From the IMG/VR virus record IMGVR_UViG_3300025141_000949, positions 1 through 21,064 of that record: a stretch of DNA of 21,064 bases; one strand, written 5' to 3'. Made by a program: the position numbers and the translations under genes. This stretch comes from a virus. The notes under the pieces were generated by a model that was not told the DNA's origin, made no database searches, and worked only from the letters and a program-made list of their open reading frames with translations. How positions within the stretch are numbered: position 1 is the stretch's first letter; the number at the start of each line of letters is the position of its first letter. Below, piece by piece: positions 3,373-18,530 of the stretch.

Positions 3373-6300
3373 CTAGATCTCAGTTCCAGCATTTGTTACC
3401 ACAAAGTCTAGTGAGATAAACTCTGCAGTTCTAGTGGGCTGGAGGAAGATCTTTCCTCTAATTGTATTATTCTCAACATCTGCCTGTGTTGTTGTTGTTG
3501 TATCGATGATTACTTTGAACCTATCGAGACCCGATTGATCTTGTATGCTTTGAAGAAGTGGGTTAACAAGACCAGAAAACTTATCAAGTGTAGATGTCCT
3601 GTTGGGCTCGAATAGAAGCGTGTCCGCAATAGCCCTTACAGACCTTCTTATTTCTATGAGAAGCCTTCTTACATTCACTCTATCAAGAGAAGACTGAGTT
3701 GCAAGAAGCGTCTTCTGCCCCCAAACAACCACACCGGTACCTGGGAAGTCTGTTATAGGATTCACATCGCCGTCATAAAGATCATCTAGGTTGGCTCTGT
3801 TGAGGTCTACAGATGCAAACAATGTGGAATTCAATGCGCCTCTTGTGAATCCAGCAGGAGCAAACCAGGGGTGGCCGACGGCGTCATTCAGTGAGAATGC
3901 TCCAAGAACGACCACAGAAGGCGGGACCCTTACGTTTGTTAGTGTTACTGGGTCAGTAACGACACAGTCTGGGAAGTATGCAGCACCGAATGATGTATCG
4001 AGTCCTCTATTCTTAAACGACGTAACAGTGTTTCCAACAGATATCACCTGATCAGCTGAGGATGTGACAACGTTATTAAGTGTGTCTCTTTCCTCGATGT
4101 CCATGATATACATTGCGTCGAATCTATTTTCAACTACATCGATTGCGTAGTCACTTATCGCCGTGTGTCTCATACCTGGAATTGCTAACAGCTTTATGTC
4201 AACATCAGACTTATTACCCATCACATCAATGGCTTTTCTAAATGATCCTACTGTGGGACCTGCGGTTCCACCCTGATTATCAGCATCGTCCATTTCTCTC
4301 TTAGACGCATTGTTTGTTAGATTTGCCTTATCTTTGTCAAAGATATTGACTCCGTCAAATCCGCCCTGGAGTATTAATGTGAATTTCGCATAATTTCTAT
4401 TAGCGGAAGTTCCGAGGTCATCTACCTTGAATCTTCTAGTCTTATCTGTCGCAGATGTGTCTATTGTGCCGTTTCTATGGTAGGATGCTGATACCCATTC
4501 CAAGGCATCTGCTAAGCCATCTGTTCCTGTCCTTACAGATATGTTCTCAAGAGTAAATTTATTATTATTAAATTTATCTGAATCTAGAACTACTCCTCCG
4601 CTGTCTGCCACACCTGCATTGTCTCCTACCATGACATTTCTATTTGTCGGATGGAACATCGGGAAGAACTTAGTGTGCGATGTAATTGTCCTGTTCAGTA
4701 AAGCTGCTGAATTTGGCTCAGAGACCTTTGTTTTGAGATCAAATTGAATTCCCCAGTATAATTGTGCCTTGACTGTCTTTGTCGGATCAGTTCCAATTGA
4801 TAAATTTTCTCTCATCGGAATTGGAGGAACTCTTGTCTGCTTGAGCATTGCTGCGTACATATCTGCCGGGACTCCGCCGCCTGCTCCAATTAGCTGCTCA
4901 GTAAGAGGTTCTGACCCAGATGTTACAAGATGCTTGATTCCTCTGAAACCTAGCGGTAAAGCATTATCTGGAACTTCTCCTGCATCTAGTGCGTTTGACT
5001 GCTTTAGCCTTATGTAATTTGAATTTGTAGGATGATCTCCTTCAACAACGAGCTTTTGTGATGCTGTTGCCTTATCAAAGTCAAAGTATATAGTCTGATC
5101 ACCTACAACCCTTGGTGCGAATCTCGTTGATGACGGATCAAGGTTGACTCCCCTATATGCCTCCATCACAACTTTTTCTTCATCTGTGTCGAAGAAGTCT
5201 CTAACTACAATGTCAAAGCTTCCAAATAGATTTGTATCTGATGTTGACTTTGCAAGATTTTCAATTGAAATCTTCACCCTCGTATTGGGTGCGAAGCCAT
5301 CGTCTATTGACACTACCTTGAACAGGTCATATGCAACTCCACCAAAGGCCTGAGATATAATATATGGTGACTCCGTTGTCTGGAATCTATCCTCAAATGA
5401 CTCATAGTTTGGAATAGAAGCATTTGATGTATCTCTAGCAAGTGCACCTGTTGTAATGAATGCTATAGGTTCCCATGTACTTGAGCCGCCATAGTTCTGA
5501 ACGGATTCCTCTCTTACGCGACCAGTTCCAGTCACAGCAGCTAGAGCAGGGTGAATGTCATAGTGCGTGTAAAGAAAGTGTCCTTTCTCCTCTATCTTTG
5601 TGGGATCTGTATTTAGTGTATCTGCAAAGTAGTTTCCACCATTCATATCAAATGACGCTGTTATAACTCTTGGGCTTGCAGCGTCTAGACCTTTGTGACC
5701 ATTGAGGAACATTACAAATTCCTGTGATCCAATCTCAGCTGAGCCAGTTATTGAGCCTCTAACTTCTGCAGCTTCATTTGCTCGTGCAGTAGCTGCAGGA
5801 GCTGCGTTATTTCCTCTTGATGACGAAAGCTTTAATATTACACCGCTGGGTGCCATCAATACACCCCTTAGAATAGGCATTGATGCTGTCATGTCTGGTG
5901 AGCTTCCTACTTTCTGAATCCCGCCGTCCCTGAAGATTGTGCTTCCGTTAGACTCAGACATAAAGCAACCGAGGAAGTATGTCCTGCCTAATGGACCCGT
6001 ATTAGCATATGTGTTTGCACCAAGATTTCCGTTTGCCTGTGGGAGTTTTCCACCGACTAAGAATCCTGCATTTGTTACTTTTCCTGTCGTTGAATTTCTC
6101 TTCTTTCCGTCTCCAGCACCAAGAACTCTTATGAACGTACATGACTGTGCTTTCTTTAGCCACTCACTAACGGCCAAAGGTCCAAATTTCTCTCCATCTG
6201 ACTCTCCGAATCTCACCATAAAATCTGTGAAAGTTCCGACTGTCAGTGGTACAAAAGCAGGACCTTCATTGGATGTTCCAATGATTCCTGCAGGGATACC

Positions 6301-6378
6301 CGAAGGCTGTGCTTGAGACGGACCAGAAAGATCTATCTCTGTCGTAGTTACGCCTGGGCTTGATATTGTTTCAGCCAT
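3373..6378 (-). CDS. Tail sheath protein, gp18-like (second, downstream paralogue)
   Basis: A contractile tail sheath subunit of 1001 residues. The N-terminus (SPGVTTTEIDLSGPSQ, then GIPAGIIGTSNEGPAFVPLT) and the TFIRVLGAG strand are classic sheath signatures. The C-terminal 220 residues carry the HPWFAPAGFTRGAL, LDRVNVRRLLIEIRR, FEPNRTST and GKIFLQPTRTAEFISLDFVV segments that form the conserved sheath core and handshake strands. T4 gp18 is about 660 residues, so roughly 340 extra residues lie in the middle, probably as surface domains. The start is ATG 6378 with a GGAG site, 38 bases after the upstream paralogue. The two proteins align end to end by eye, including shared FNNNKFTL, YAKF and GGFDG segments in the variable middle, so they arose by duplication. 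Confidence 0.93.
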   Translation of the reverse strand: MAETISSPGVTTTEIDLSGPSQAQPSGIPAGIIGTSNEGPAFVPLTVGTFTDFMVRFGESDGEKFGPLAVSEWLKKAQSCTFIRVLGAGDGKKRNSTTGKVTNAGFLVGGKLPQANGNLGANTYANTGPLGRTYFLGCFMSESNGSTIFRDGGIQKVGSSPDMTASMPILRGVLMAPSGVILKLSSSRGNNAAPAATARANEAAEVRGSITGSAEIGSQEFVMFLNGHKGLDAASPRVITASFDMNGGNYFADTLNTDPTKIEEKGHFLYTHYDIHPALAAVTGTGRVREESVQNYGGSSTWEPIAFITTGALARDTSNASIPNYESFEDRFQTTESPYIISQAFGGVAYDLFKVVSIDDGFAPNTRVKISIENLAKSTSDTNLFGSFDIVVRDFFDTDEEKVVMEAYRGVNLDPSSTRFAPRVVGDQTIYFDFDKATASQKLVVEGDHPTNSNYIRLKQSNALDAGEVPDNALPLGFRGIKHLVTSGSEPLTEQLIGAGGGVPADMYAAMLKQTRVPPIPMRENLSIGTDPTKTVKAQLYWGIQFDLKTKVSEPNSAALLNRTITSHTKFFPMFHPTNRNVMVGDNAGVADSGGVVLDSDKFNNNKFTLENISVRTGTDGLADALEWVSASYHRNGTIDTSATDKTRRFKVDDLGTSANRNYAKFTLILQGGFDGVNIFDKDKANLTNNASKREMDDADNQGGTAGPTVGSFRKAIDVMGNKSDVDIKLLAIPGMRHTAISDYAIDVVENRFDAMYIMDIEERDTLNNVVTSSADQVISVGNTVTSFKNRGLDTSFGAAYFPDCVVTDPVTLTNVRVPPSVVVLGAFSLNDAVGHPWFAPAGFTRGALNSTLFASVDLNRANLDDLYDGDVNPITDFPGTGVVVWGQKTLLATQSSLDRVNVRRLLIEIRRSVRAIADTLLFEPNRTSTLDKFSGLVNPLLQSIQDQSGLDRFKVIIDTTTTTQADVENNTIRGKIFLQPTRTAEFISLDFVVTNAGTEI

Positions 6379-6416: not shown

Positions 6417-9400
6417 CTACTCAAAACTTACACCGGCATTGGTGATAATAAAGTCAACTGATATGAATTCTACAGCTCTTGTAGGAACAAGAACGATTCT
6501 ACCGTTTAGTCTATTATTCTCTATGTCCTCTTGTGTATTGTTAGAGGTATCCATTACAACAGAGAATTTCTCAATCCCCTGTTGACTCTGAACAAGAGCT
6601 AGAAGTGGCGTTACCTGAGAAACGAATTTAGCTCTAGTAGAAGTAGTATTTGCCTCGAAGACAATTTTTTCTGCAACACCTACTACGAGCCTCTTCACCT
6701 CGAGAAGCATCCTTCTTACATTAACTCTATCTAAAGCACTTCTCGCTTGCTGCAATGTCTTCTGGCCAAATATTACAAATCCAGCACCTGGAAAAGATGC
6801 GATCGGATTTATTCTAGAGTCATATAGGTCATCTCTATTTGCCTTGTTCAATCTTGTTGCTGTGTTTGTCACCATTGACAAAGCAGCTCTATTAAATCCT
6901 GCAGGTGCAAACCACGGATATGATATAGAATCATTGAAACCTAGAGCTGCTATTGCAGCAACTGATGCCGGCACCTTCACCTTCATGTCATTTACATTAT
7001 CATGAATAGTAACATCTGGGAAGTATGTTGCAGAATAGTTGTTGTCAACTGCCCTTGAGTCGAACTTCTCTCTCGTGTATCCTACATCTGGTTTCTTTCC
7101 ATCATTGTCATAGATTCTTGTTATGTCATCGTCAAAGTTAGGAATGTCCATAAGATACATCGCCTTGCTATAATCCTTCGTGGAGTCAGCTGCGTGATCT
7201 GTTACGAACGCGTCTCTAATTCCAGGAATTGCCAAGATGTTTATTCTTGTTACAAATGGATCTGTCATTATATCAATTGCTGTCTTGTATGAGAATATTC
7301 CATTATTGTATCTTCCCACTCCAGCCGGGAAAGCGCTTACAGCACCTGTGCTTGTACCATCAGAGCTTATGCCTATATCAAGAGTTCCAGCAGCCTTTCC
7401 TCCAAGATCAGTAGATGTAGCCCTGTCATTCATTCTTGACATATCTACGTCGAGGATGTTGTTTCCATCAAAACCGCCGTAGAATATGTTAGTGAACTTA
7501 GCGTAATCAGTGAACCTATTGAAGTATGTTGAAGACGTAAGTGCAGAGTATAATGTTGCCAATGTCAATCTGTATCTAGATGAGCCGTCATCGACCGTAT
7601 ATCCACTTGAGTCAGGAACACCATCACGAATGTATACCGTTTCAAGCATGTGCTCCTTGGCTGTTCCAGTGAGGTAAGACGTTACAGTTGAGACGATTGA
7701 ATTTAACGTTCCAGCCTGTGTCCTGTGAGCTGAGAGAGCAACATTTGCAAGAGTGAACTTGTTATTATTGAATACATCTTTTCCAGAACCTGTGACAACA
7801 GCGTCAAGATTCTCTATTCCTACGAATTTTGTAAAAGACCTAACTAGCTCATTTACCTCTGACGAATTATTTGGATTCAGAGCTGAAAGACTGAGTGATC
7901 CAGTTCGTGGAACTCTACATGTGTTGATTCCCCAGAAAAATCTGCTGTCTGTAATCTCATCATCTCCAGGTGAGCCTGGTGGACCAGACACTGCAGTGTT
8001 TCCCTTTGTTACCTTGTATCTCAGCGGCATTGGCGGAACAATTGATCCAGATAGACCAGATATAGAACCACTAGATCCAAGGCCGCCGTCGTAGTCCTTG
8101 GGAAACTTGCTTCCCATTCTTCGAGAATTGGCAGCACCATATGTTAAGCCACCAAATGCCAGGGCTGTCTTAGACTCATCTGTTAGTGTGTCAGTAGTCT
8201 TTAAGACAGGTACACCTCTGAATCCGAACGGAATAGCGTCTTCTGGCACTTCTCCTCTATTCATATCTGTGCTCATTACGATTCTTACTCTCGATGAGAC
8301 ATTTGGATACTTTCCAGTGACTACGAATCTTCGCTCCTTTTTATCCTCAGCATCGAAGTCAAATCTTAGCTTTAGATCACCTATTCTCTTAGAAACAAAG
8401 CCCTCATCATTTGGATCAAGAGTACACATAGGATACTGCTCTAGTATCTCAGGTGCAGTATCTGAGTCACCAAATGATCTTACAAGAACTGTAAATGTTC
8501 CAAACTTGCTTTTTGGATTTGTTGATTTTCTCAGAGTGCTAATAGAGACTTTGTACTTATCACTGGCGTTTGCACCGTCCGCTATTGTCTCAAAATAGAA
8601 TAAATTAAACTCACGATTACCGTATGGTTGTGAGATGAAGTATGATGTTTTTGGTGCCCTGTATCTTGTATCAAATCTTCCGTACATATCTCTAAAAGCC
8701 AGTGTAGATATTCCTGACTTAGATGATGTATTTGCAGATCCTGTACATAGTGCAACTGTTCCACTGATGTGTGATCTAGCTGCGTTTATAGATACTGTTG
8801 CTATCTCATCTTCTACTGCAAAATCAGCATAGAGAAGGTGCTCTTCTTGCTGGAATCTAGCTGGGTTTGTGTTAAGGATTTTTCCAACATAAGCATCATC
8901 AGATGGATTCAAGGATGCTGTAAATATTCTAATTCCAGACTTGCTCTCATCATTCCAATTTGCATTTGTGCTACTTGATAGTACAAGCTTAAACCTCTTA
9001 TACATCATAGTATCAACAGTTGTGCCGACCCTGCAGAGATCTGATGCACTAGCGACAGGCTGAACATCAGAATACTTCTGATCAAAATCCATAACCTCGA
9101 ATTTTGTTCCAGTTGCAGTAAAGAGCATAGCTCTAACAATATTCACCTCAGAAGTGAAACCTGAGCCTGCTCCCACTGTTGTGGAATTGAAGCTGATGTT
9201 GTCTGAATACTGCGGGTATGCACGGTTCCCGTCTGCGTTGACAGTATGCCGGGCTACCAAGAACTGTGGAGCACCTTGATATCTCTTATCTCGTGTATGA
9301 ACCCGACCGGCATCGGCATCTGTTTGTGTTAGTGTGCCGACAAGACTGAATCCTGCATTTTTAACAGTTCCCTGTGCTCTGGTGGCTTCAATATCTGTTG

Positions 9401-9680
9401 AAGTATCATTTGCACCAGCACCTAGAACCCTTATAAATGTTAGGGCTGTCCTGTTCTTAAGAAACTCGTTAACAGCATACGGTCCAAATCTTGTTCTATC
9501 TAGCTCACCAAACCTATTTACGAAATCGCCAATAGAGCCTATTGTAATTGGAATGAATGCAGGTCCTACTTCTGAGGTACCTATAACTCCCGCGGGAACT
9601 CCAACGACTTCTTCGACTCTTCCGGAGAGGTCGATTTCTCTTTCGTAAAATCCCGGTGATCTGAAGGTCTGTTCAGCCAT
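6417..9680 (-). CDS. Tail sheath protein, gp18-like (first, upstream paralogue)
   Basis: A tail sheath subunit of 1087 residues. The N-terminus has SPGFYEREIDLSGRVEE, GVPAGVIGTSEVGPAFIPIT and LTFIRVLGAG. The C-terminus has YPWFAPAGFNRAALS, LDRVNVRRMLLEVKR, FEANTTSTRAKF and GRIVLVPTRAVEFISVDFII. These are the conserved sheath core regions. The middle is enlarged well beyond T4 gp18 and contains segments shared with the neighbouring paralogue (FGFRGVP, VPPMPLR, FNNNKFTL, YAKFTNIFYGGFDG). A clear AAGGAG site precedes ATG 9680. Whether both paralogues go into one mixed sheath, or one has a special position such as the collar or baseplate end, cannot be told from sequence. Confidence 0.93.
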   Translation of the reverse strand: MAEQTFRSPGFYEREIDLSGRVEEVVGVPAGVIGTSEVGPAFIPITIGSIGDFVNRFGELDRTRFGPYAVNEFLKNRTALTFIRVLGAGANDTSTDIEATRAQGTVKNAGFSLVGTLTQTDADAGRVHTRDKRYQGAPQFLVARHTVNADGNRAYPQYSDNISFNSTTVGAGSGFTSEVNIVRAMLFTATGTKFEVMDFDQKYSDVQPVASASDLCRVGTTVDTMMYKRFKLVLSSSTNANWNDESKSGIRIFTASLNPSDDAYVGKILNTNPARFQQEEHLLYADFAVEDEIATVSINAARSHISGTVALCTGSANTSSKSGISTLAFRDMYGRFDTRYRAPKTSYFISQPYGNREFNLFYFETIADGANASDKYKVSISTLRKSTNPKSKFGTFTVLVRSFGDSDTAPEILEQYPMCTLDPNDEGFVSKRIGDLKLRFDFDAEDKKERRFVVTGKYPNVSSRVRIVMSTDMNRGEVPEDAIPFGFRGVPVLKTTDTLTDESKTALAFGGLTYGAANSRRMGSKFPKDYDGGLGSSGSISGLSGSIVPPMPLRYKVTKGNTAVSGPPGSPGDDEITDSRFFWGINTCRVPRTGSLSLSALNPNNSSEVNELVRSFTKFVGIENLDAVVTGSGKDVFNNNKFTLANVALSAHRTQAGTLNSIVSTVTSYLTGTAKEHMLETVYIRDGVPDSSGYTVDDGSSRYRLTLATLYSALTSSTYFNRFTDYAKFTNIFYGGFDGNNILDVDMSRMNDRATSTDLGGKAAGTLDIGISSDGTSTGAVSAFPAGVGRYNNGIFSYKTAIDIMTDPFVTRINILAIPGIRDAFVTDHAADSTKDYSKAMYLMDIPNFDDDITRIYDNDGKKPDVGYTREKFDSRAVDNNYSATYFPDVTIHDNVNDMKVKVPASVAAIAALGFNDSISYPWFAPAGFNRAALSMVTNTATRLNKANRDDLYDSRINPIASFPGAGFVIFGQKTLQQARSALDRVNVRRMLLEVKRLVVGVAEKIVFEANTTSTRAKFVSQVTPLLALVQSQQGIEKFSVVMDTSNNTQEDIENNRLNGRIVLVPTRAVEFISVDFIITNAGVSFE

Positions 9681-9739
9681 CAGTTTCTCCTTGTAAAACT
9701 TACCACGCAGTTATAACTATCGTCGTAAACGTCAATTGT

Positions 9740-10960
9740 CTAATCAGATTTAATATCACTAACAGTTTCTAAATCAATTACAATACGAGACGAAGAAACC
9801 GTTTCTCCTGCTCTCTGATTCCTAGATAATACCCTTACATATTTTCGTGATTTTTCATCTGTAAAGGGATCTATTGTAATGTCCATCAGCTTTGCGCTTG
9901 ACTGGCCTCGCTGTGCTGGTGATTCGCCGTGGGAATTGAGGACCTCGACGTCTGATAGAATAAAATTATCAATTTTATTTTGAGATATCTCAGACTTATC
10001 TTCAGATATTACTCTTGTTCTAGACTGCTTATACCCAAATTCAATTGTTGGTGCAGAAAGATATCTTCTGAACGGATTGGGCAAGTTTGGGTGATTCGGT
10101 GCCAATATGAATCCTGGAACTTTTACGTTGAACGAGTATCGTATTATTCTCTCTTCATTGCTAAAATTATCAAAGTTATCCTGAGATGTGAACTGTCCTT
10201 CAAAAAATGCAACAAACTCATATCCAGAGTTTGTTTTTATCTTGAATCCTTTTTCTTGCCCATCAAATTGAACTATTAGAGATTCTATAATCTGATTCAT
10301 ATGTATTGTATATTGTGTCCAGAATGTTATCTCATAGTTGCAAAGTATGAACTCAGGATACGGAATCGTTATGATCTCAAATATGTTATTTGTCAGATCA
10401 TTTCTCAATAGATTCCCAGTCGGATCATCAAAAAATGATAAATTTCTTGTATTTCTTCTCGACGCTATTCTTCCTGATTTTGCAACATTTCCTGGAAATA
10501 TATCATTTTGTGAAAATGCTGGTCGTGATGCAACATTGTCTTGATTTTTTAATCTTAGCTTGTTTATTATATTTTGATATCCTCTATCATTTTTGCTAAG
10601 CCTTCTTTTGATAGTGTATGCTTCTTGGTCTCTTGTTGCTATTGGTGTACCATAGTTTCCAGGATTGGGTGCAAAATCTATATTCTTTCTTCTTATCGAT
10701 ATAATGGGGAGAATTAGTGCATTATTTGAGTCTCTTATTGGGGGCTTTCTTCTTGTAAGCGCAAATCTTTCTCCTGTTGCAAATACTACAGGTACCTTCT
10801 TTGGCTTATTGTTTACGTTTATAGAAAACTTTAGTCTTTCATCAAAGAGGTTGAATAATGCTCTATCCATATCCTCTATCCCACAGGGCGCTATTGAAAA
10901 ATCATCAGGAATATTCTCTCCTTCAAATTTAGGGTCTATTCCGCTATATTTTTTTATCAT
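9740..10960 (-). CDS. Tail sheath stabiliser / tail-completion protein, gp15-like
   Basis: A 406-residue protein that I match to T4 gp15, which caps the head-proximal end of the sheath and tube and joins the tail to the neck. Evidence is the early segment ALFNLFDERLKFSINVNN followed by KKVPVVFATGERFAL (residues 55-69) and LPIISIRR (84-91), which parallels the gp15 pattern of strand, IKVPxxYGPKEKFL and LPRMSFEI. Further on come the IPYPEFILCNYEITFWTQYT segment (199-218) with a long helix of MNQIIESLIVQF, and then RIIRYSFNVKVPGFIL (271-286), as in the gp15 core. It is longer than T4 gp15 (about 270) through a basic linker at 110-190 and a C-terminal tail. ATG 10960 follows the gp14-like stop by 14 bases. 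Position after gp13 and gp14 supports the call. Confidence 0.75.
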   Translation of the reverse strand: MIKKYSGIDPKFEGENIPDDFSIAPCGIEDMDRALFNLFDERLKFSINVNNKPKKVPVVFATGERFALTRRKPPIRDSNNALILPIISIRRKNIDFAPNPGNYGTPIATRDQEAYTIKRRLSKNDRGYQNIINKLRLKNQDNVASRPAFSQNDIFPGNVAKSGRIASRRNTRNLSFFDDPTGNLLRNDLTNNIFEIITIPYPEFILCNYEITFWTQYTIHMNQIIESLIVQFDGQEKGFKIKTNSGYEFVAFFEGQFTSQDNFDNFSNEERIIRYSFNVKVPGFILAPNHPNLPNPFRRYLSAPTIEFGYKQSRTRVISEDKSEISQNKIDNFILSDVEVLNSHGESPAQRGQSSAKLMDITIDPFTDEKSRKYVRVLSRNQRAGETVSSSRIVIDLETVSDIKSD

Positions 10961-11634: not shown

Positions 11635-12816
11635 TTACCCCATGAATATTGCGAGACCGTTGGGCATCGGAACAAATTTTAACTGTTTATTAATTGCCTC
11701 AGCTCGTGCAGCAGATGTCTCAATAAGCTTATCGTATGTTAATGTGTCTAGCATCTCTTTTAGCTGTGTCATTAAATTAGTCTTATCTTCTCTTCCCTGT
11801 GACACTAGGTCAGTTCCGTTTAGCTGCAATTGTGCGTTTGGAATAGGGACATTACTAAACTTCGATCTTATTAAGCCCAAGCCCTCTCTGCTTAGAGATA
11901 ATGCATACTGTCTAATCCACTGCCTTCCAATGCTGTTTATTCTATCATAGATTAAATTTCCGAATGGAACATTAGATAAATTTGACACGCCGTGTATTGT
12001 GTCATCTTTGTATGCGGGATTTAATGGGTCAGGGTGATATTGCACTCTTATAAACAGCTTTTTTGGAGAATTATCAGTTGGCATTGGGAATATTCGTATT
12101 TTTGTTCCAATTATCTTATATGAATAGTTTGATCGTCTTACCCTGTTTGATATATCAAGCTGTCCGGCTCTTAGAATATCTTCGAATACAGGTAGAACAT
12201 AAAATATTGTCTCTGGCGTAAACGATTCAAATGAAAATTCATTATTTAGATAGTTTATAGCTGATGTTGTATCAAAAAATCTATACGCTGCCTGGGGTCC
12301 GAAGTGAAAGACCTCACTGACCTTTAGCTTTGTCTTTCTTCCTGATATCGCATTAGATCCTGAATTGAATAGAGATCCGCCGGCTGCATTCTTAAGATCA
12401 TTGTGTATATCATAATCCTGCTGATCTTTTATTAGCTGAATTGATCCTGATATCATATTATATGATCCACCGACACCCGCTTCCATTGCATACGGCTCAG
12501 CAAATCTAGTCAAGTACTCTAGATTTTCTCTTGGGAGTTTTTGCTCAGACCCTGACAGAAAACTACCTGTTGGCATTCCTAAAAATTGAACAAGCTGTGA
12601 TTTTGCCTGGTATTGATTTAAAATAGAGCCATATTCTAAAACTGCTTCCTCTAGATTTGCCCATATCTGTTTTTTCGTTAGCTCTACACTAAGAACATCA
12701 TCGCCTAGCTTTCTTTTAACAAACGTAACAACACTATCAGCCTCAGACTGAAAGTCTGTGTCTGAATCAAAAAACCCAAACGGAGTTGGATTTGTCGTTG
12801 AAGAAAAAGTTGCCAT
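11635..12816 (-). CDS. Neck protein, gp13-like
   Basis: A 393-residue protein starting at ATG 12816. A TTG just before it at 12819 is in frame but only four bases from the AGG of the ribosome binding site, while the ATG is better spaced. The N-terminal VVTFVKRKLGDDVLSVELTK followed by KQIWANLEEAVLEYGSI is the helical signature of gp13-type neck proteins (xLGxPVxxVELTxxQI, then a helix). Residues 160-260 include FHFGPQAAYRFFDTTSAINYL and IIGTKIRIFPMP, where T4-type relatives carry similar strands. Role: head completion and neck formation with the gp14-like product, which is encoded three bases downstream. The 124 bases between this gene and the tubulin-like gene are AT-rich and contain nothing I could assign firmly. 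Confidence 0.75.
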   Translation of the reverse strand: MATFSSTTNPTPFGFFDSDTDFQSEADSVVTFVKRKLGDDVLSVELTKKQIWANLEEAVLEYGSILNQYQAKSQLVQFLGMPTGSFLSGSEQKLPRENLEYLTRFAEPYAMEAGVGGSYNMISGSIQLIKDQQDYDIHNDLKNAAGGSLFNSGSNAISGRKTKLKVSEVFHFGPQAAYRFFDTTSAINYLNNEFSFESFTPETIFYVLPVFEDILRAGQLDISNRVRRSNYSYKIIGTKIRIFPMPTDNSPKKLFIRVQYHPDPLNPAYKDDTIHGVSNLSNVPFGNLIYDRINSIGRQWIRQYALSLSREGLGLIRSKFSNVPIPNAQLQLNGTDLVSQGREDKTNLMTQLKEMLDTLTYDKLIETSAARAEAINKQLKFVPMPNGLAIFMG

Positions 12817-12940
12817 CAATTTACCTAGTGCATATGTACGTATTCATACATATTGATTTCAAAGCACTGGTTCTATGAAATTTACTTATTCACATCATTT
12901 CAATCATAGGGATGATAGTTGATAAAAAATATTTTTATTT

Positions 12941-14257
12941 CTACTTCATCCCGCCCAGTGCCATAATTGCTATCAGCCCAGGAACAGAATTTCTGACATA
13001 TACACCAGAGAATAGTGTCTCTGATCTTCCACCCACATAAGATATCGCAGATTCCATCTGATTAGATGCAACTGGATCAGATGCAATATCTGAATTGACA
13101 ACTAGCAATAGCATTCCTGTATGTGGCTTTCCCTCTGGAGGTGGGCATGGTGATCTCTCTGTGCATGCCTTGAATATTTGTAATCCGAGGCTGTTGGCCT
13201 TTGAATCTCTTACAGCACATGTTCCCATAAACATTCTTCCGTCTTGCTGAAGACATTTTTCAAGATCTTTTGTATCAAATGTCTGAACTGGGGAGCTCTC
13301 AGACGCTAGCTTAAGAACTTGTGCTAGCATTTTTGCAAAGACTCTATTTGCTGTTGGGTACATCCCAAGCATTCCTACCTTTCCTCTTAGTAGCTGCAGC
13401 TGTTTTTCATTGTCGATTACTATGTAAGGTGAATTTACTACTGAATCCTTTAACATTTGAGAATTTGTCTTGATTGTTGGATTAAGAAGCTCTTGAGAAG
13501 ATGGTGTACTGACAATATATACAACCTTTCCTTCTGCCTGAACTGATGCGAGATATCTCTCATATGTGTTATGAAGAACTGTTGATGCACTTCCAGTTCC
13601 TCCGCCCCCCGATGCACATACAAATAACCAGTCGACTTTGCCCAGCTTTGCACGAAGTGTATCTTCGACGAGCGTGGCATTTTCCTGAAGAAGCTTCCTG
13701 CCAGCAACTACATCTTTTCCCACTCCGTCTGATCCGTCTAGTAGGACAAAGTGATCATCTGGAACACCGTCTGGCTGATCTTTATGTGTTGTGTTAATTA
13801 AAATTGTTCTATTGAAACCTAGATCTAAAAATGCCTTTGCCATCTTTCCGCCGCCACCACCGACCCCAACAAATCCACAATTAATTGCTGATTTTGCAGT
13901 ATTTTCTGGCAGGAGCATAGACTGATCATCTAGTTTTTCATCTCCATAGTGATCTACGAAGTCAAAATCATCGAAATCATCGAAGTCATCTGTAGGTTGA
14001 TTTGAATCTTGTTGCATTACTACCTCTTTTTTTTGTTCTTGAGCAGCCTCTTGAACTGTCTCTGTTTTTTTCTCTATTTTCGGACTTTCTACAACAGCTT
14101 CTTTCTTTGAATCTTTTTCTTCTATCTTTTCAGTCGGCCCTGCTGTTATGATGTCACGGATATGCTCTTTCTGTGCCTCTTTATAAAAATCGTCTGTTGC
14201 CATTTGTTTCTCTTTTTTTTCTGCATTCGCAAGACTAGCTCTTACTGTACTTGCCAT
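12941..14257 (-). CDS. FtsZ/tubulin-family GTPase
   Basis: A 438-residue protein with a tubulin/FtsZ GTPase domain from about residue 125. Visible motifs are T1 GFVGVGGGGGKMA (128-140), a T3-like loop GSDGVGKDVVAGRKLLQEN that parallels the FtsZ GAGxxPxxGRxAAEE loop, the signature T4 loop GGGGTGS (217-223), a T5-like STPSSQ (250-255), IDNEKQLQLL (281-290) at the FtsZ INND/L position, and a T7-like FDTKD (327-331) with both acidic residues (Asp328, Asp331), so GTP hydrolysis on polymerisation is possible. The first 120 residues are charged and low-complexity and include the acidic-aromatic repeat DDFDDFDDFDF (90-100). There is no FtsZ-type C-terminal tail peptide. ATG 14257 follows a GGAG site. 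The location between capsid/decoration and neck genes is unusual: phage tubulins such as PhuZ position the phage nucleus or plasmid-like genomes. The function here is unknown. Confidence 0.88.
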   Translation of the reverse strand: MASTVRASLANAEKKEKQMATDDFYKEAQKEHIRDIITAGPTEKIEEKDSKKEAVVESPKIEKKTETVQEAAQEQKKEVVMQQDSNQPTDDFDDFDDFDFVDHYGDEKLDDQSMLLPENTAKSAINCGFVGVGGGGGKMAKAFLDLGFNRTILINTTHKDQPDGVPDDHFVLLDGSDGVGKDVVAGRKLLQENATLVEDTLRAKLGKVDWLFVCASGGGGTGSASTVLHNTYERYLASVQAEGKVVYIVSTPSSQELLNPTIKTNSQMLKDSVVNSPYIVIDNEKQLQLLRGKVGMLGMYPTANRVFAKMLAQVLKLASESSPVQTFDTKDLEKCLQQDGRMFMGTCAVRDSKANSLGLQIFKACTERSPCPPPEGKPHTGMLLLVVNSDIASDPVASNQMESAISYVGGRSETLFSGVYVRNSVPGLIAIMALGGMK

Positions 14258-14274
14258 AAATTACACTCCATCAT

Positions 14275-14295
14275 ATCACATTATAATTATGTGAT
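14275..14295. repeat. Imperfect palindrome in the tubulin-like gene promoter region
   Basis: ATCACAT and ATGTGAT arms (7 bases each) flank the AT-rich centre TATAATT. It lies just upstream of the tubulin-like gene and overlaps a TATAAT box on the minus strand (14280-14285). It could be an operator or simply AT-rich symmetry. Position is the only support. Confidence 0.3.
14280..14285 (-). promoter_or_regulatory. Possible promoter -10 element (TATAAT) for the tubulin-like gene
   Basis: The minus strand reads TATAAT 22 bases before ATG 14257 and downstream of a strong terminator (14324-14348). The gene therefore probably needs its own promoter. No good -35 is visible, as with the other two TATAAT boxes in this window. 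This is consistent with late promoters that need only the -10 box. Confidence 0.35.
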
Positions 14296-14323
14296 AAAAT
14301 AAGTTATTTTTTTGAAATAAAGA

Positions 14324-14348
14324 AAAGCCCGCACTATGTGCGGGCTTT
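14324..14348 (-). terminator. Intrinsic terminator after the small virion protein gene
   Basis: An 11-base-pair perfect stem (AAAGCCCGCAC / GTGCGGGCTTT) closes a 3-base loop. On the minus strand it is followed by TTTTCTTTATTTC. It lies about 50 bases after the stop of the small virion protein gene and before the tubulin-like gene. Confidence 0.88.
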
Positions 14349-14401
14349 AAGATATAGCTCTATTAATTGCTATAGATTTCTTACTTAGAATTAAACAGTA
14401 A

Positions 14402-14917
14402 TTATGCTAAGTTGATTGCTCCAGTATTCGCAGCAAGAGGATCAATTACATCAGTAGCCAGCCAGCCGGTAGCTGCTGTGCTAGTAATGCATGTAACTGT
14501 GAAACATCCTCCCAAAACTGCGTTTTCATCAAATCCAATTGAATCATAACCTTGGGAGATGGCAGTATTGTCGCCATCACCTTTTGCCGTCACAGCAAGG
14601 ATCTTATCGGAGTCAGCTCCTAGAACATTAAAGTCTTGTCCAGCAGTTGCAACCATAACAAATGTATATGTACACCCTACACTAGCAGCTGATAGTGCTG
14701 GAAGTGTAATTGTTTGTGTCCCAGTTGTTAGCGCCGGAACTGTGAAAATTGTTCCAGATTCTTCAACTGTGATTGCTGTCCTAATAGCAGTTGCGCCACC
14801 CTGGTCTGAGAGTGTTACAACTCGACGCTTGGATTGCAGTGAATCACCTGTTAGGTCTAATCCTTTTCCTGATGTTTGATATAGCCCTTTGGTTTGTGAA
14901 TATTTTACTTTTGGCAT
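14402..14917 (-). CDS. Small virion protein, possibly capsid decoration or trimer protein
   Basis: A 171-residue protein starting MPKVKYSQTKGLY at ATG 14917, which follows a GGGAG site by seven bases. An in-frame ATG 33 bases further upstream lacks a good site. The middle, VTVEESGTIFTVP-like strands (ITVEESGTIFTVPALTTGTQ, then TITLPALSAASVGCTYTFVM), matches a repeated pattern of phage virion proteins in which a GTxFxVPAxxTxxxITLPA segment precedes a GxxYxFVV strand; related proteins are annotated as head decoration or virion structural proteins in marine phages, as I recall. It follows the major capsid gene but is separated from it by a terminator, so it can be expressed at its own level. No catalytic motif or signal sequence is seen. 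Confidence 0.6.
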   Translation of the reverse strand: MPKVKYSQTKGLYQTSGKGLDLTGDSLQSKRRVVTLSDQGGATAIRTAITVEESGTIFTVPALTTGTQTITLPALSAASVGCTYTFVMVATAGQDFNVLGADSDKILAVTAKGDGDNTAISQGYDSIGFDENAVLGGCFTVTCITSTAATGWLATDVIDPLAANTGAINLA

Positions 14918-14977
14918 AATTTCTCCCTTTTTTGAGTTGTTTGTCCACATGCTTCCGATGCTAGCGTGTGGGGTCCG

Positions 14978-15011
14978 CCATTATGCATGCACCGGGCTTA
15001 CCATTATATAT
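14978..15011 (-). promoter_or_regulatory. Candidate promoter region with two AT-ATAATGG boxes for the small virion protein gene
   Basis: The minus strand has ATATATAATGG (15001-15011) and ATGCATAATGG (14978-14988), 23 bases apart. The first contains an exact TATAAT (15003-15008). Both lie between the capsid terminator and this gene, which needs a promoter of its own. No convincing -35 is seen at the usual spacing. These could be two late promoters or a duplicated site. Confidence 0.4.
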
Positions 15012-15062
15012 GAGTCTTGCTATCTATTTTGGCTACTTTCAAAAATAAAAGCAAAATAAAAA

Positions 15063-15084
15063 GGGCGGCCCCGAAGAGCCGCCC
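15063..15084 (-). terminator. UUCG-tetraloop intrinsic terminator after the major capsid gene
   Basis: In the mRNA GGGCGGCUC and GGGCCGCCC form nine pairs (one U-G) around a cUUCGg tetraloop, followed by a T-rich stretch (TTTTTATTTTGC). The hairpin starts 26 bases after the capsid stop codon. This is a textbook strong intrinsic terminator and marks the end of a capsid transcript. Confidence 0.93.
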
Positions 15085-15110
15085 AGTTTATATCATAACC
15101 TCTTGTTATC

Positions 15111-17027
15111 TTAGATAACGTCGAGATCCATTACTGTGACTGTACCGTAGAAGTCAGCACGAACCATCTTCTTACCATACCGGGTCATCACTCCCTTACG
15201 GGGTGTGAAGTCTTCCGGCTGGAAGATAGTAGGTGTAACGATCAACGGAACGTAAGGTGCGTAAACGTACCCTGTCTCTAGATAGCTTCCGCCCTTGTAT
15301 CCGACGAGGACCTTGTTCCTTGGGAAGTAAGGATCCTTGTAGACCGTGAAACGGTTGCTTAGAGAACCAACTGCGGCTGCACCCATTGAGAATGGAACAC
15401 CAACCTGACCCTGTCCATCAAGACTGTAATTAGGCTTGTAGAGGACTGAGGCCTCAAAGATGGTACAGACATCCGGAGAAGTTACGATGAAGTTCGCAGA
15501 ACCTCGTAGTGTCTTCCTGTGGATCTCATTTGCAACATCGATGATTGTCTCTGTAAGAGTCTCATACCACTCGCGAACTGTACCTGTGAAGGTAGGACCG
15601 GTTGAAAGTGTGTTAGCAAGATTCTGGGTAGTACCAGTCTTCTTGTTAACGAACTTACCAGGCAACCTTGACCAGTAGTAGTTAGCACCGTTTGCCTCAC
15701 TGAGCAGATCGTTGAGAATCTCACGATCAATCTCAAGTGCAACTTGCTCGGAGAGGATCTGTGTTAGCTCTACCTCAGCGTCAAGGCTGTGGTATGCGTT
15801 GAGATCCTGAGCGAGCTCGGGTGACCAGCGAGCACGGAGCTTACGGGTAACCGCTGTTACAGCGATTGACTCAATCTTAATGTCAATCTCAGGGATTGCG
15901 GGTGAAGGTGCGGATGTACTAAAGTTAGACTCGAATGATGGAATCGTCAATGTTGAGCCATCACCATCTGCTTGCAGAGTGGAATTAAGTACCATCGAGC
16001 AAGTAAGATCTGTAGTCGAGTTGTTGTACGTCCTTGAACCAGAAACAACCATCAGTAGAACAGAATTCGCATCTGTTCTTCCAACCATCGAATCTGCTGT
16101 GAAATTTCCACCTACATATTTTCCAAGCTGGTTGAGCCTTCTAATGTTTAGAATGTTCTTTCCACCCTGAATTGTATCAGGAATTGCACCATATCCGATC
16201 GCGCCCTTACCGTCACCTAAGGTCGCACCAGAATAAAGTGCAATTTCCTTATGCGCTGTTAGGTCAACACCTGCTCCAAACGAATCCAGATCAACAAAGA
16301 GGAATGAGAACCTTCCGTCGTTGTCTCTCGCCGGGTCACCCTCAATTAGAGAAGTTACCTGCGGATCGAACTGTAGAAGCTTACCATCTGTTCCCGTTGC
16401 CATAGCTAGTGTTGAAACACTAATGCTAGATCCTGCGCCCCATGCACCTGATGCGACAATTCTGTGTGCCGGAATTTCAGAACTAGAGTGAACTCTAGAA
16501 TAGCCCGTGCCCACAAGGTCATACTGACCTCCTGCGCCTGTAGAGCCTGATCTTACACCTTTTCCAGGTGGGTTGTTGTAAATTGATGCGCCTTTCTGGT
16601 ATGTCTGAGCATTCATTCCATCAGTGGAAAGATCCATGGGTGCATCACCACCAACACCTGATCCGTATGTATAATCAAGGTAGAAGAGCAGTCCAGAAGG
16701 AAGGCTCATCGGCTGAATTGAAACTAACTCGTTTGCAACGAGTCCACCAAAGACACGTCGGACGATTGGGAATGCGATATTTGTGAATCCACGAATATCA
16801 CCGGATCCTGTTCCGGATCCTGCGCCTGTTGAAAGTGAATTAGCCTCTCTCAGAAGCTGCGCAGCTTGGTTCTCAAGCATAACAGACATCGATTCACGAT
16901 GCTGTTCCCCGAGACCACGTAGCAGTCCTGTTCTTGACCATTTCTCAATCAGACGCTTATTTTGCTCACCCATGTGACGGGATCTAATACCCTCAGTGAG
17001 CTGATTTAGCGTAAATGATTTTGCCAT
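15111..17027 (-). CDS. Major capsid protein, gp23-like
   Basis: A 638-residue major head subunit of the T4 gp23 type (HK97 fold). After an N-terminal helical region, the segment IAFPIVRRVFGGLVANELVS followed by IQPMSLPSGLLFYLDYTYGS (roughly residues 84-123) is the gp23 signature. Later regions include VTRKLRARWSPELAQDLNAY (the RKLKARYTxELAQDLxA motif) and FIVTSPDVCTIFEAS. The sequence LRE-A at residues 59-62 fits the T4 prohead-protease rule (hydrophobic-x-Glu before a small residue) and lies close to where T4 gp23 is cut (after residue 65). It is longer than T4 gp23 (521), with extra residues in the middle. ATG 17027 follows AAAGGAG. The stop codon TAA lies in the loop of a 6-base hairpin (15105-15119). 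Confidence 0.95.
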   Translation of the reverse strand: MAKSFTLNQLTEGIRSRHMGEQNKRLIEKWSRTGLLRGLGEQHRESMSVMLENQAAQLLREANSLSTGAGSGTGSGDIRGFTNIAFPIVRRVFGGLVANELVSIQPMSLPSGLLFYLDYTYGSGVGGDAPMDLSTDGMNAQTYQKGASIYNNPPGKGVRSGSTGAGGQYDLVGTGYSRVHSSSEIPAHRIVASGAWGAGSSISVSTLAMATGTDGKLLQFDPQVTSLIEGDPARDNDGRFSFLFVDLDSFGAGVDLTAHKEIALYSGATLGDGKGAIGYGAIPDTIQGGKNILNIRRLNQLGKYVGGNFTADSMVGRTDANSVLLMVVSGSRTYNNSTTDLTCSMVLNSTLQADGDGSTLTIPSFESNFSTSAPSPAIPEIDIKIESIAVTAVTRKLRARWSPELAQDLNAYHSLDAEVELTQILSEQVALEIDREILNDLLSEANGANYYWSRLPGKFVNKKTGTTQNLANTLSTGPTFTGTVREWYETLTETIIDVANEIHRKTLRGSANFIVTSPDVCTIFEASVLYKPNYSLDGQGQVGVPFSMGAAAVGSLSNRFTVYKDPYFPRNKVLVGYKGGSYLETGYVYAPYVPLIVTPTIFQPEDFTPRKGVMTRYGKKMVRADFYGTVTVMDLDVI

Positions 17028-17063: not shown

Positions 17064-18530
17064 TTAATTATCGTTTTGAATTCCAGCTAGAGTAGCCCAG
17101 CGATCAACTTCAGCGACCTGTTCATTTCTTGGAGACGATGCCCCTACAGTTCGTGAAGATGAGCCTAGTGTCCTACGCAATGCTGACTCAGAAAGTCTTC
17201 CTTTCCTTGGCTTAGCAAGTGATTCGGTTAGACTTTGGTACAATAACTTAGCCTCTCTTAAACTAGTAGCACCGTCGAGGGCCTCGATAATAGAACGCCT
17301 CTGGGATGCTCCCATGTCCTTGTTTTGCAAAAGCTTGTTAACATAGAGAAGCTTTGCATTAAACAGATTCATTTCTGTCAACTGCTCACGGAGTGAATCA
17401 ACTGCACCCACGTATTCATTGAGCCTTTTCTTGAGAGATCGATTTTTTCGTCTCTCATTTGTATAAGCTTCAGAAAGAACGTTTACCTTGACCTGTAATG
17501 GGTCTTTGGTTCTCTTTCCTCCGCCAAAATCGTCGCCTTTGCTACCGCCAGTTCCTCCATAAGAGCCTTTGACGCCAGCATTGCCATGGCCTTTTCCACC
17601 CCAGTGGTGTGCCATATCATTCTTAATTCCCTTGATTTTTGATAGATCCTTAGCTGCCTCAGAGAGACGACCTAGCTCGCTTCTAAGCATGTTAACGTCT
17701 ACCTCAAATAACTCATCGAGGTCGGGTAGCTCTTCACCTTCCGGCTCTTCAAGGTCTTCACCTTCTTCACCTTCCGGCTCTTCAAGGTCTTCCTCATCCT
17801 CTAGATCTACCTCTTCCCCTTCCTCGTCTTCCTCACCAAACTCAATGGCAAGCTGTGAAAGATCAAGCTGGTCTCTCAGCTCATCGGGCAACCCTTTTAA
17901 GATTAAATCCAACTCATCAAGCTGGCCTGCGACGCCTTCCGCTTCAGGGGGCTCTTCTGGGGGTATTTCTTCTTCACTTAGATCAAGACTTTCCATAAGT
18001 GCATCGAGATCGACTTCGTAAAGTGTATCCTGTGACATATTGATGTTCTCCTCAACGTCATTAAAGCTAAAGCTTTCTTGCATAACTATATCGCTAGTAG
18101 ATAAACTATCTGTATTGAGCCTTAATTTATCAACAACGCTAAGAAGTTTTTTCTTCTCTTCGCTGTCCATGGTATCTAATGCCTCTTGCATAGCCCCTAG
18201 AGCAAGACTTCTGCTCTTTAGCTTTCTAAGAGGTTCGCTCATGTCATCTGAATCACCGAACAGCTCCATAAGAGTTGATAATGCATCTTCTGTAAGTATT
18301 ACATCATCTTCTGATTGTGTTCCTGAATGCTCAGATAGCATATCATTAACTGTACTTTCTAAAACGTCTGAGTCGTCTCCGCTTGAGGTGTCTCCTACAA
18401 GCTGAGCTTCTATAAACTGTCTTATTTTTGGTGTCACAGCCTCAACAATTGCGTTCTTTGCATTTTTTTCTGCAACTTCTCTGAGTTGCTTTGCTTCAGC
18501 TATTGCTTCTTCATAAAGATTACTGGCCAT
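17064..18530 (-). CDS. Prohead core / scaffolding protein, gp22-like
   Basis: A 488-residue, strongly acidic protein encoded 36 bases upstream of the major capsid gene, as gp22 is in T4. Residues 1-45 are a charged helix, 50-180 a helical acidic region, and 186-276 an almost continuous Glu/Asp-rich stretch with the 11-residue repeat EEPEGEEGEDL. Residues 311-338 form a Gly-rich linker. From about 345 to 445 a basic helical coiled-coil region reads RSLKKRLNEYVGAVDSL, then LFNAKLLYVNKLLQNKDMG and SLREAKLLYQSL, which I have seen in head core proteins of large T4-like phages. Such cores assemble inside the prohead and are degraded by the prohead protease. No Ser/His protease motif is evident, so it is not gp21. 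Start ATG 18530 with a GAGG site. Confidence 0.78.
   Translation of the reverse strand: MASNLYEEAIAEAKQLREVAEKNAKNAIVEAVTPKIRQFIEAQLVGDTSSGDDSDVLESTVNDMLSEHSGTQSEDDVILTEDALSTLMELFGDSDDMSEPLRKLKSRSLALGAMQEALDTMDSEEKKKLLSVVDKLRLNTDSLSTSDIVMQESFSFNDVEENINMSQDTLYEVDLDALMESLDLSEEEIPPEEPPEAEGVAGQLDELDLILKGLPDELRDQLDLSQLAIEFGEEDEEGEEVDLEDEEDLEEPEGEEGEDLEEPEGEELPDLDELFEVDVNMLRSELGRLSEAAKDLSKIKGIKNDMAHHWGGKGHGNAGVKGSYGGTGGSKGDDFGGGKRTKDPLQVKVNVLSEAYTNERRKNRSLKKRLNEYVGAVDSLREQLTEMNLFNAKLLYVNKLLQNKDMGASQRRSIIEALDGATSLREAKLLYQSLTESLAKPRKGRLSESALRRTLGSSSRTVGASSPRNEQVAEVDRWATLAGIQNDN
17731..17792. repeat. Tandem 33-base repeat inside the scaffold gene
   Basis: Two 29-base segments are identical at 17731-17759 and 17764-17792 (period 33 bases). 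They encode the repeated acidic 11-residue unit EEPEGEEGEDL. The nucleotide identity, not only the protein identity, suggests recent slippage or duplication. Confidence 0.85.

Follow-up and report, generated by a model that had tools for sequence, protein, structure and literature searches.

The open reading frame at 12941-14257, on the minus strand of a T4-like marine phage that is represented by metagenomic sequence alone, encodes, as we are confident from its sequence and predicted structure, a GTPase of the tubulin/FtsZ superfamily with an intact active site. Its most probable role, to which we give a probability of about 0.5, is that of a phage-specific GTPase made late in infection and forming a stand-alone filament that places capsids or DNA, or organises the infected cell. 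Phage tubulins have come chiefly from nucleus-forming phages (PhuZ) and a plasmid-like prophage (TubZ), and the family described here may be a separate, previously undescribed phage cytoskeleton; a search of the open-access literature found no paper describing the family.

Gene, predicted fold and active-site loops

The window, that is, the whole stretch of DNA analysed, is an IMG/VR virus record of 21,064 bases. Its main genes are all encoded by the minus strand and follow a late-gene order like that of T4; those nearest to the FtsZ-like gene, together with the sheath genes, are as follows.

17064-18530, minus strand: scaffold-like gene
15111-17027, minus strand: major capsid protein gp23 (PF07068, E 2.8e-76)
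14402-14950, minus strand: all-beta decoration/spike-like gene, whose likely true start is the methionine of MPKVKY (residue 12)
14324-14348, minus strand: strong terminator-like hairpin, separating the upstream all-beta gene from the FtsZ-like gene
12941-14257, minus strand: FtsZ-like GTPase gene, 438 aa, ATG start, assigned by sequence matches and predicted fold
11635-12819, minus strand: neck/head-tail adaptor gene, next downstream of the FtsZ-like gene (phrog_211, E 5.4e-10)
3373-6378 and 6417-9680: a pair of neighbouring tail sheath genes, encoding proteins of 1001 and 1087 aa that each match sheath families

The neck adaptor gene is followed by a second neck gene and then by a tail-sheath-stabiliser-like gene (PF16724, weak match); the remaining late genes are the two sheath genes, the tail tube and the baseplate hub. 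The sheath pair is seen again in relatives (e.g., L002 and L006). The product of 14402-14950 gave a low-confidence model whose top match is a Pseudomonas phage capsid spike; its family is all-beta, begins with MPKVxYxxxKGLVQ and occurs as tandem duplicates in some phages (members at L068, L070 and L100). The surroundings described in the first-pass annotation, with gp23, a decoration-like gene upstream, neck genes and a terminator before the FtsZ-like gene, were all recovered, the terminator as the hairpin listed above.

The FtsZ-like reading frame has GGAG ahead of its ATG, and relatives share its start peptide, MA[S]xx. By sequence the protein matches the NCBIfam ftsZ model TIGR00065 (E 2.1e-9; 37.2 bits, short of the 295.2-bit cut-off), FtsZ chains in the PDB (E 4.5e-6) and Pfam Tubulin (E 5.3e-5, under the cut-off, which four relatives exceed). 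Among solved chains, CetZ 3zid is the best profile match over the full length (E 4.2e-9). An AlphaFold2 model built from an alignment of 26 sequences contains both the tubulin/FtsZ GTPase fold and the C-terminal domain, with pLDDT near or above 90 over most of residues 115-438 and below 50 at 32-110; the structure prediction that the first-pass annotation had asked for gave the expected fold with a confident core. Foldseek matched the predicted fold to FtsZ with E 2.4e-19, and VIA-align of residues 122-438 gave Z scores of 32.3 for TubZ (Bacillus), 32.2 for CetZ2 and 29.1 for FtsZ. The protein features to which we refer below are these.

13922-14257, minus strand: N-terminal extension, residues 1-112, with a helix at 4-37 and then mostly predicted disorder
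13946-13972, minus strand: conserved peptide DDFDFVDHY, residues 96-104, just ahead of the folded domain
13844-13867, minus strand: T1 glycine loop GVGGGGGK, residues 131-138
13589-13609, minus strand: T4 signature loop GGGGTGS, residues 217-223, with GGGTGS invariant in 82 sequences
13265-13285, minus strand: T7 (synergy) loop QTFDTKD, residues 325-331

The T1, T4 and T7 Asp-x-x-Asp loops noticed at the outset are present and conserved across the 82 distinct homologues compared, T4 and T7 being essentially invariant rather than lost. The T1 glycines 131, 133, 134 and 136 occur in 100% of these sequences, as do Asp328 and Asp331 of the T7 element F-D-x-K-D (residues 327-331), which align with Asp209 and Asp212 of FtsZ. 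Asn207 of FtsZ aligns with the variable Thr326, and the neighbouring Gln325 is invariant. Essentially invariant too are Pro252, Gln255 and Glu256 of T5, Asp282, Asn283 and Glu284 of T6, and Phe327 of T7. In the nucleotide and T7 loops the mean entropy is 0.28-0.67 bits; in the core as a whole it is 1.03. The conserved active-site loops and the predicted fold make an active GTPase, as first proposed, likely.

The ends of the protein are distinctive. Among family members 25-176 residues precede the first T1 glycine, and this extension is net acidic in most of them, with a median excess of 11 acidic residues. Within DDFDFVDHY, Phe98, Phe100 and Tyr104 are conserved in 96%, 98% and 95% of the 82 sequences, and we infer that the D-F-D-F-V-x-x-Y peptide is a candidate docking or partner-binding motif. 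At the other end, because just 0-7 residues follow the last glycine of the domain in the 82 sequences, there is no FtsZ-type C-terminal linker or tail.

Extent of the family and its place in the superfamily

A single-sequence scan of viral contigs yielded 3 relatives, and profile scans extended these to 34 and then 331 contigs. The family thus numbers no fewer than 331 virus contigs, the longest reaching 293 kb; the best 80 of the 331 were retained, and the conservation figures derive from 82 distinct sequences. A scan of a genome collection added two further relatives, both in Flavobacteriales bins, one of which contains two. Family phage contigs lie in the Flavobacteriales bin SZUA-1004 (L037 and L056) and in the Flavobacteriaceae bin NAT231 (L038), a binning that we regard as a weak hint of the host. 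In close pairs the gene is under strong purifying selection (median dN/dS 0.07 across 85 pairs).

A gp23 homologue was found in 11 of 12 large records bearing the FtsZ-like gene. The records behind L012 and L105 hold two tandem gp23-type capsid genes (loci L235, L238 and L245), each about 67-68% identical to the gp23 of the window. No credible FtsZ-like copy was found in the huge-phage capsid relatives LR756508 and LR756511 or in the cultured relatives immuto and Mel-JY01. From inspection of the sequences by eye, the phages of records G031 and G032 (L247-L253 and L257-L258) seem to encode DnaJ-like, IMP dehydrogenase/GMP reductase-like and nucleotidyltransferase-like proteins.

A tree of 60 rows separates the phage family (100/99), FtsZ (99/97) and PhuZ (100/100) into distinct groups; FtsZ is represented there by 22 Bacteroidota sequences and E. 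coli only, and TubZ lies outside the tree. Bacillus phage G gp138 and one CetZ fragment sit on long unresolved branches, for which long-branch effects were flagged. In profile comparisons the family matched phage G with E 1.1e-12 (hhalign), FtsZ with E 1.6e-10 (293 columns), CetZ with E 2.8e-8 (277 columns) and PhuZ with E 1e-5 (122 columns, N-terminal only). PhuZ chains were absent from the VIA-align top list, which we did not count as evidence. From the separate tree groups and the profile comparisons we conclude that the family forms a branch of its own within the superfamily. The first-pass annotation had called its placement, as between FtsZ and tubulin/TubZ types, uncertain, and these comparisons bear that out. 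The alternative raised there, a host-derived FtsZ, is disfavoured by the missing C-terminal tail and by the separation from Bacteroidota and E. coli FtsZ; recent capture of a host FtsZ was rejected on this same tree.

Each known system shares some features with the family and lacks others. Bacterial FtsZ has the same fold, the T1, T4 and T6 loops and the T7 Asp-x-x-Asp, but is only about 17-18% identical, scores the window protein far under the FtsZ cut-off, and carries a C-terminal linker and tail where the phage proteins have a variable acidic N-terminal extension. TubZ and archaeal CetZ gave the highest structural Z scores (32.3 and 32.2), but at 16-21% identity, and no TubR-type partner was seen beside the FtsZ-like gene. 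PhuZ of phiKZ and other Chimalliviridae is likewise a phage-encoded tubulin-superfamily GTPase of large-genome phages; it differs in its separate clade and partial profile match, and the phages bearing the FtsZ-like gene have T4-type gp23 capsids. Among annotated proteins of the phage collection, the closest relative is gp138 of Bacillus phage G ('putative FtsZ-like cell division protein'; 28% identity over 42% of the query, profile 61.5 bits), a tubulin/FtsZ GTPase that also comes from a very large phage; it is, however, a single long branch of unsure placement, and its gene lies among nucleotide-metabolism and unknown genes, outside any head-neck cluster. The best predicted viral structure match was A0A6J5RW92 ('FtsZ cell division GTPase', uncultured Caudovirales phage; E 3.6e-24, 19% identity).

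Variable position and a candidate late-promoter motif

The place of the gene between gp23 and the neck genes, to which the first-pass annotation gave weight, turned out to be no fixed feature of the family. In a sample tilted towards window-like members, the gp23-neck slot accounts for 33 distinct family proteins; 9 are encoded in the portal-protease interval, 1 (at L110) in the protease-scaffold interval, 11 near PhoH and 13 upstream of the terminase, for the most part behind an SbcCD-like gene. The other 23 have various locations, among them a setting with lysis genes. The synteny survey called for at the outset, anchored on the neck gene, found 19 loci with the FtsZ-like gene in the gp23-neck slot and 27 complete intervals without it. 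In view of these intervals and of the at least five other slots, we rejected the idea that the whole family keeps the gene between gp23 and neck. No FtsZ-like copy was present anywhere in the 13 slot-negative records searched, all of which may be partial. On the neck-gene tree we count about eight changes in the state of the slot; a quick method applied to the tree of the FtsZ-like gene itself gives about 15 changes of slot label. The slot changes and the slot-negative records indicate that the gene is accessory and mobile, yet strongly constrained where present; since related phages do without it, it is dispensable for this type of virion, and since its position varies, position alone is no argument for a capsid, tail or virion role.

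The immediate neighbours of the gene vary with the slot. When gene content was compared, using as queries the ORFs of two positive records, the FtsZ-like family was the sole one present in 5 of 5 positive and 0 of 4 negative records, the latter being incomplete. Neither this comparison nor neighbour clustering yielded an obligate partner gene. That the gene is kept while its position shifts, with no family accompanying it, is as expected of a self-sufficient module.

For the expression of the gene, two elements lie between the hairpin and the start codon.

14284-14290, minus strand: ATAATTA, which fits ATANTTA (the candidate late-promoter motif) and lies 33 bp ahead of the FtsZ-like start codon
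14274-14296, no strand assigned: short inverted repeat overlapping the candidate promoter

On the coding strand of the window, 6 of 11 ATANTTA sites lie 26-44 bp before gene starts, those of the scaffold, gp23, FtsZ-like, both sheath and tube genes (starts 18530, 17027, 14257, 9680, 6378 and 3325). The motif was found after the fact, in the same regions in which its enrichment was then counted, and independent confirmation is therefore needed of the following counts across loci: sheathA 47/47 upstreams (shuffled mean 5.3), scaffold 25/27 (3.5), tube 17/21 (3.0), sheathB 15/22 (3.1), neck 46/84 (7.6) and FtsZ-like 37/63 (8.8), with PhoH at 1/9. By slot, the motif precedes the FtsZ-like gene in 20 of 24 readable upstreams between gp23 and neck, 7 of 11 beside PhoH, 0 of 8 between portal and protease and 0 of 10 beside TerL; genes in the last two settings may be read from upstream promoters. 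The canonical T4 late promoter, TATAAATA, which ATANTTA does not resemble, was absent from all 16 upstream regions examined in the window, and sigma-70 promoters showed no excess there (13 against 17.6 expected from shuffles). Of the first-pass proposal that the gene has its own promoter, the sigma-70-like form did no better than shuffled sequence, and another candidate element, ATANTTA, takes its place. The accompanying idea of late structural expression keeps a basis in this motif and loses the one it had in the gp23-neck position. Late expression of the FtsZ-like gene is, on these sequence signals, moderately supported.

Possible function, and other genes found beside the FtsZ-like gene

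We propose that late in infection the phage-specific GTPase would be made and bind GTP, and that its subunits would assemble head-to-tail, each supplying its T7 Asp-x-x-Asp to complete the neighbouring subunit's GTP site. Polymerisation is likely, and hydrolysis of GTP is what the conserved loops lead us to expect. The resulting filament would be a stand-alone cytoskeletal element within the infected cell, its most likely job being to place capsids, phage DNA or both, or to organise the cell, during virion assembly; the DFDFVxxY peptide of the N-terminal extension would probably serve as the docking site for cargo. Placement of capsids or DNA is our leading guess, given the analogy with PhuZ and the late-gene setting of many members.

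The main rival to capsid or DNA placement is a block of host division, in which the protein would co-polymerise with or sequester host FtsZ and keep the cell long. Some phages are known to inhibit FtsZ by means of small, unrelated proteins, among them T7 Gp0.4 and Kil (PMC13423816), and the FtsZ fold and nearly complete longitudinal-contact loops would suit such a function. We nevertheless think it unlikely, as the protein shares only about 17-18% identity with FtsZ, is not nested among Bacteroidota FtsZ and has no C-terminal FtsZ tail. In addition, a poison would presumably have no need of the conserved catalytic T7 aspartate pair, and a promoter motif of late type is late for this purpose. 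Somewhat less probable again is that the protein forms part of the virion or prohead, or helps assembly at the neck or capsid. Here the location in the head cluster in three arrangements (gp23-neck, portal-protease and, at L110, protease-scaffold) and the ATANTTA motif common to the FtsZ-like, scaffold and sheath genes are set against the many members outside that cluster (beside PhoH, by lysis genes, after an SbcCD-like gene) and against close relatives that build the same capsid and neck without the gene. Ahead of the fold, a conserved LLPEN looks like an LxE cleavage site for gp21, but the residue is Glu in just 71% of the 82 sequences and Asp in 20%, and we rejected it as such a site.

The top structural Z, that of Bacillus TubZ, tied with CetZ2, raises the thought of a TubZ-like segregation filament serving a plasmid-like or pseudolysogenic state. 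This we hold improbable: T4-type phages are typically lytic, a search of 12600-15200, around the FtsZ-like gene, found no array of TubZ-type iterons, and no consistently accompanying gene family could be TubR. The PhuZ spindle of a nucleus-forming phage is the least probable reading, and very unlikely, even though there is a weak PHROG match to PhuZ (E 0.0085) and several relatives have large genomes. PhuZ forms a separate clade, its profile match (122 columns, E 1e-5) covers the N-terminal domain only, against 293 columns for FtsZ, and the capsid is of T4 type. Chimallin gave no match in 12 records, by an insensitive search: the same query finds phiKZ and RAY but misses the PhuZ-bearing Aphrodite1 and LAh10.

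Returning to the stand-alone filament, we tentatively suggest, with less assurance than for the filament itself, a third kind of phage cytoskeleton: widespread, self-sufficient and late, placing capsids or DNA through its N-terminal docking peptide in T4-like phages that have no nucleus, and encoded by a mobile but strongly selected gene. If this is true, there would be a third common family, in T4-type phages, and cytoskeletons inside infected cells would prove independent of the phage nucleus. Comparing close relatives that have or lack the gene would then offer a natural way to ask what such filaments add to phage assembly.

Several other genes were observed beside the FtsZ-like gene. A sulfotransferase-like gene lies between gp23 and the FtsZ-like gene at L061 (8204-9094, PF03567) and L113 (8494-9372), an odd cargo for this slot. 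Directly downstream of the FtsZ-like gene at L007 is a P-loop gene of zeta-toxin/kinase type (9484-10353; PF06414, E 1.6e-10), with similar cases at L083 and L122. A small sigma-70 region 4 protein adjoins the gene on the opposite strand at L081 (11098-11370, minus strand) and recurs in phages with the PhoH slot. At L020 (9546-11454), downstream of an endolysin, the FtsZ-like gene stands between a spanin-like gene and a gene for a secreted, coiled-coil-looking protein, with which it overlaps by 13 bases.
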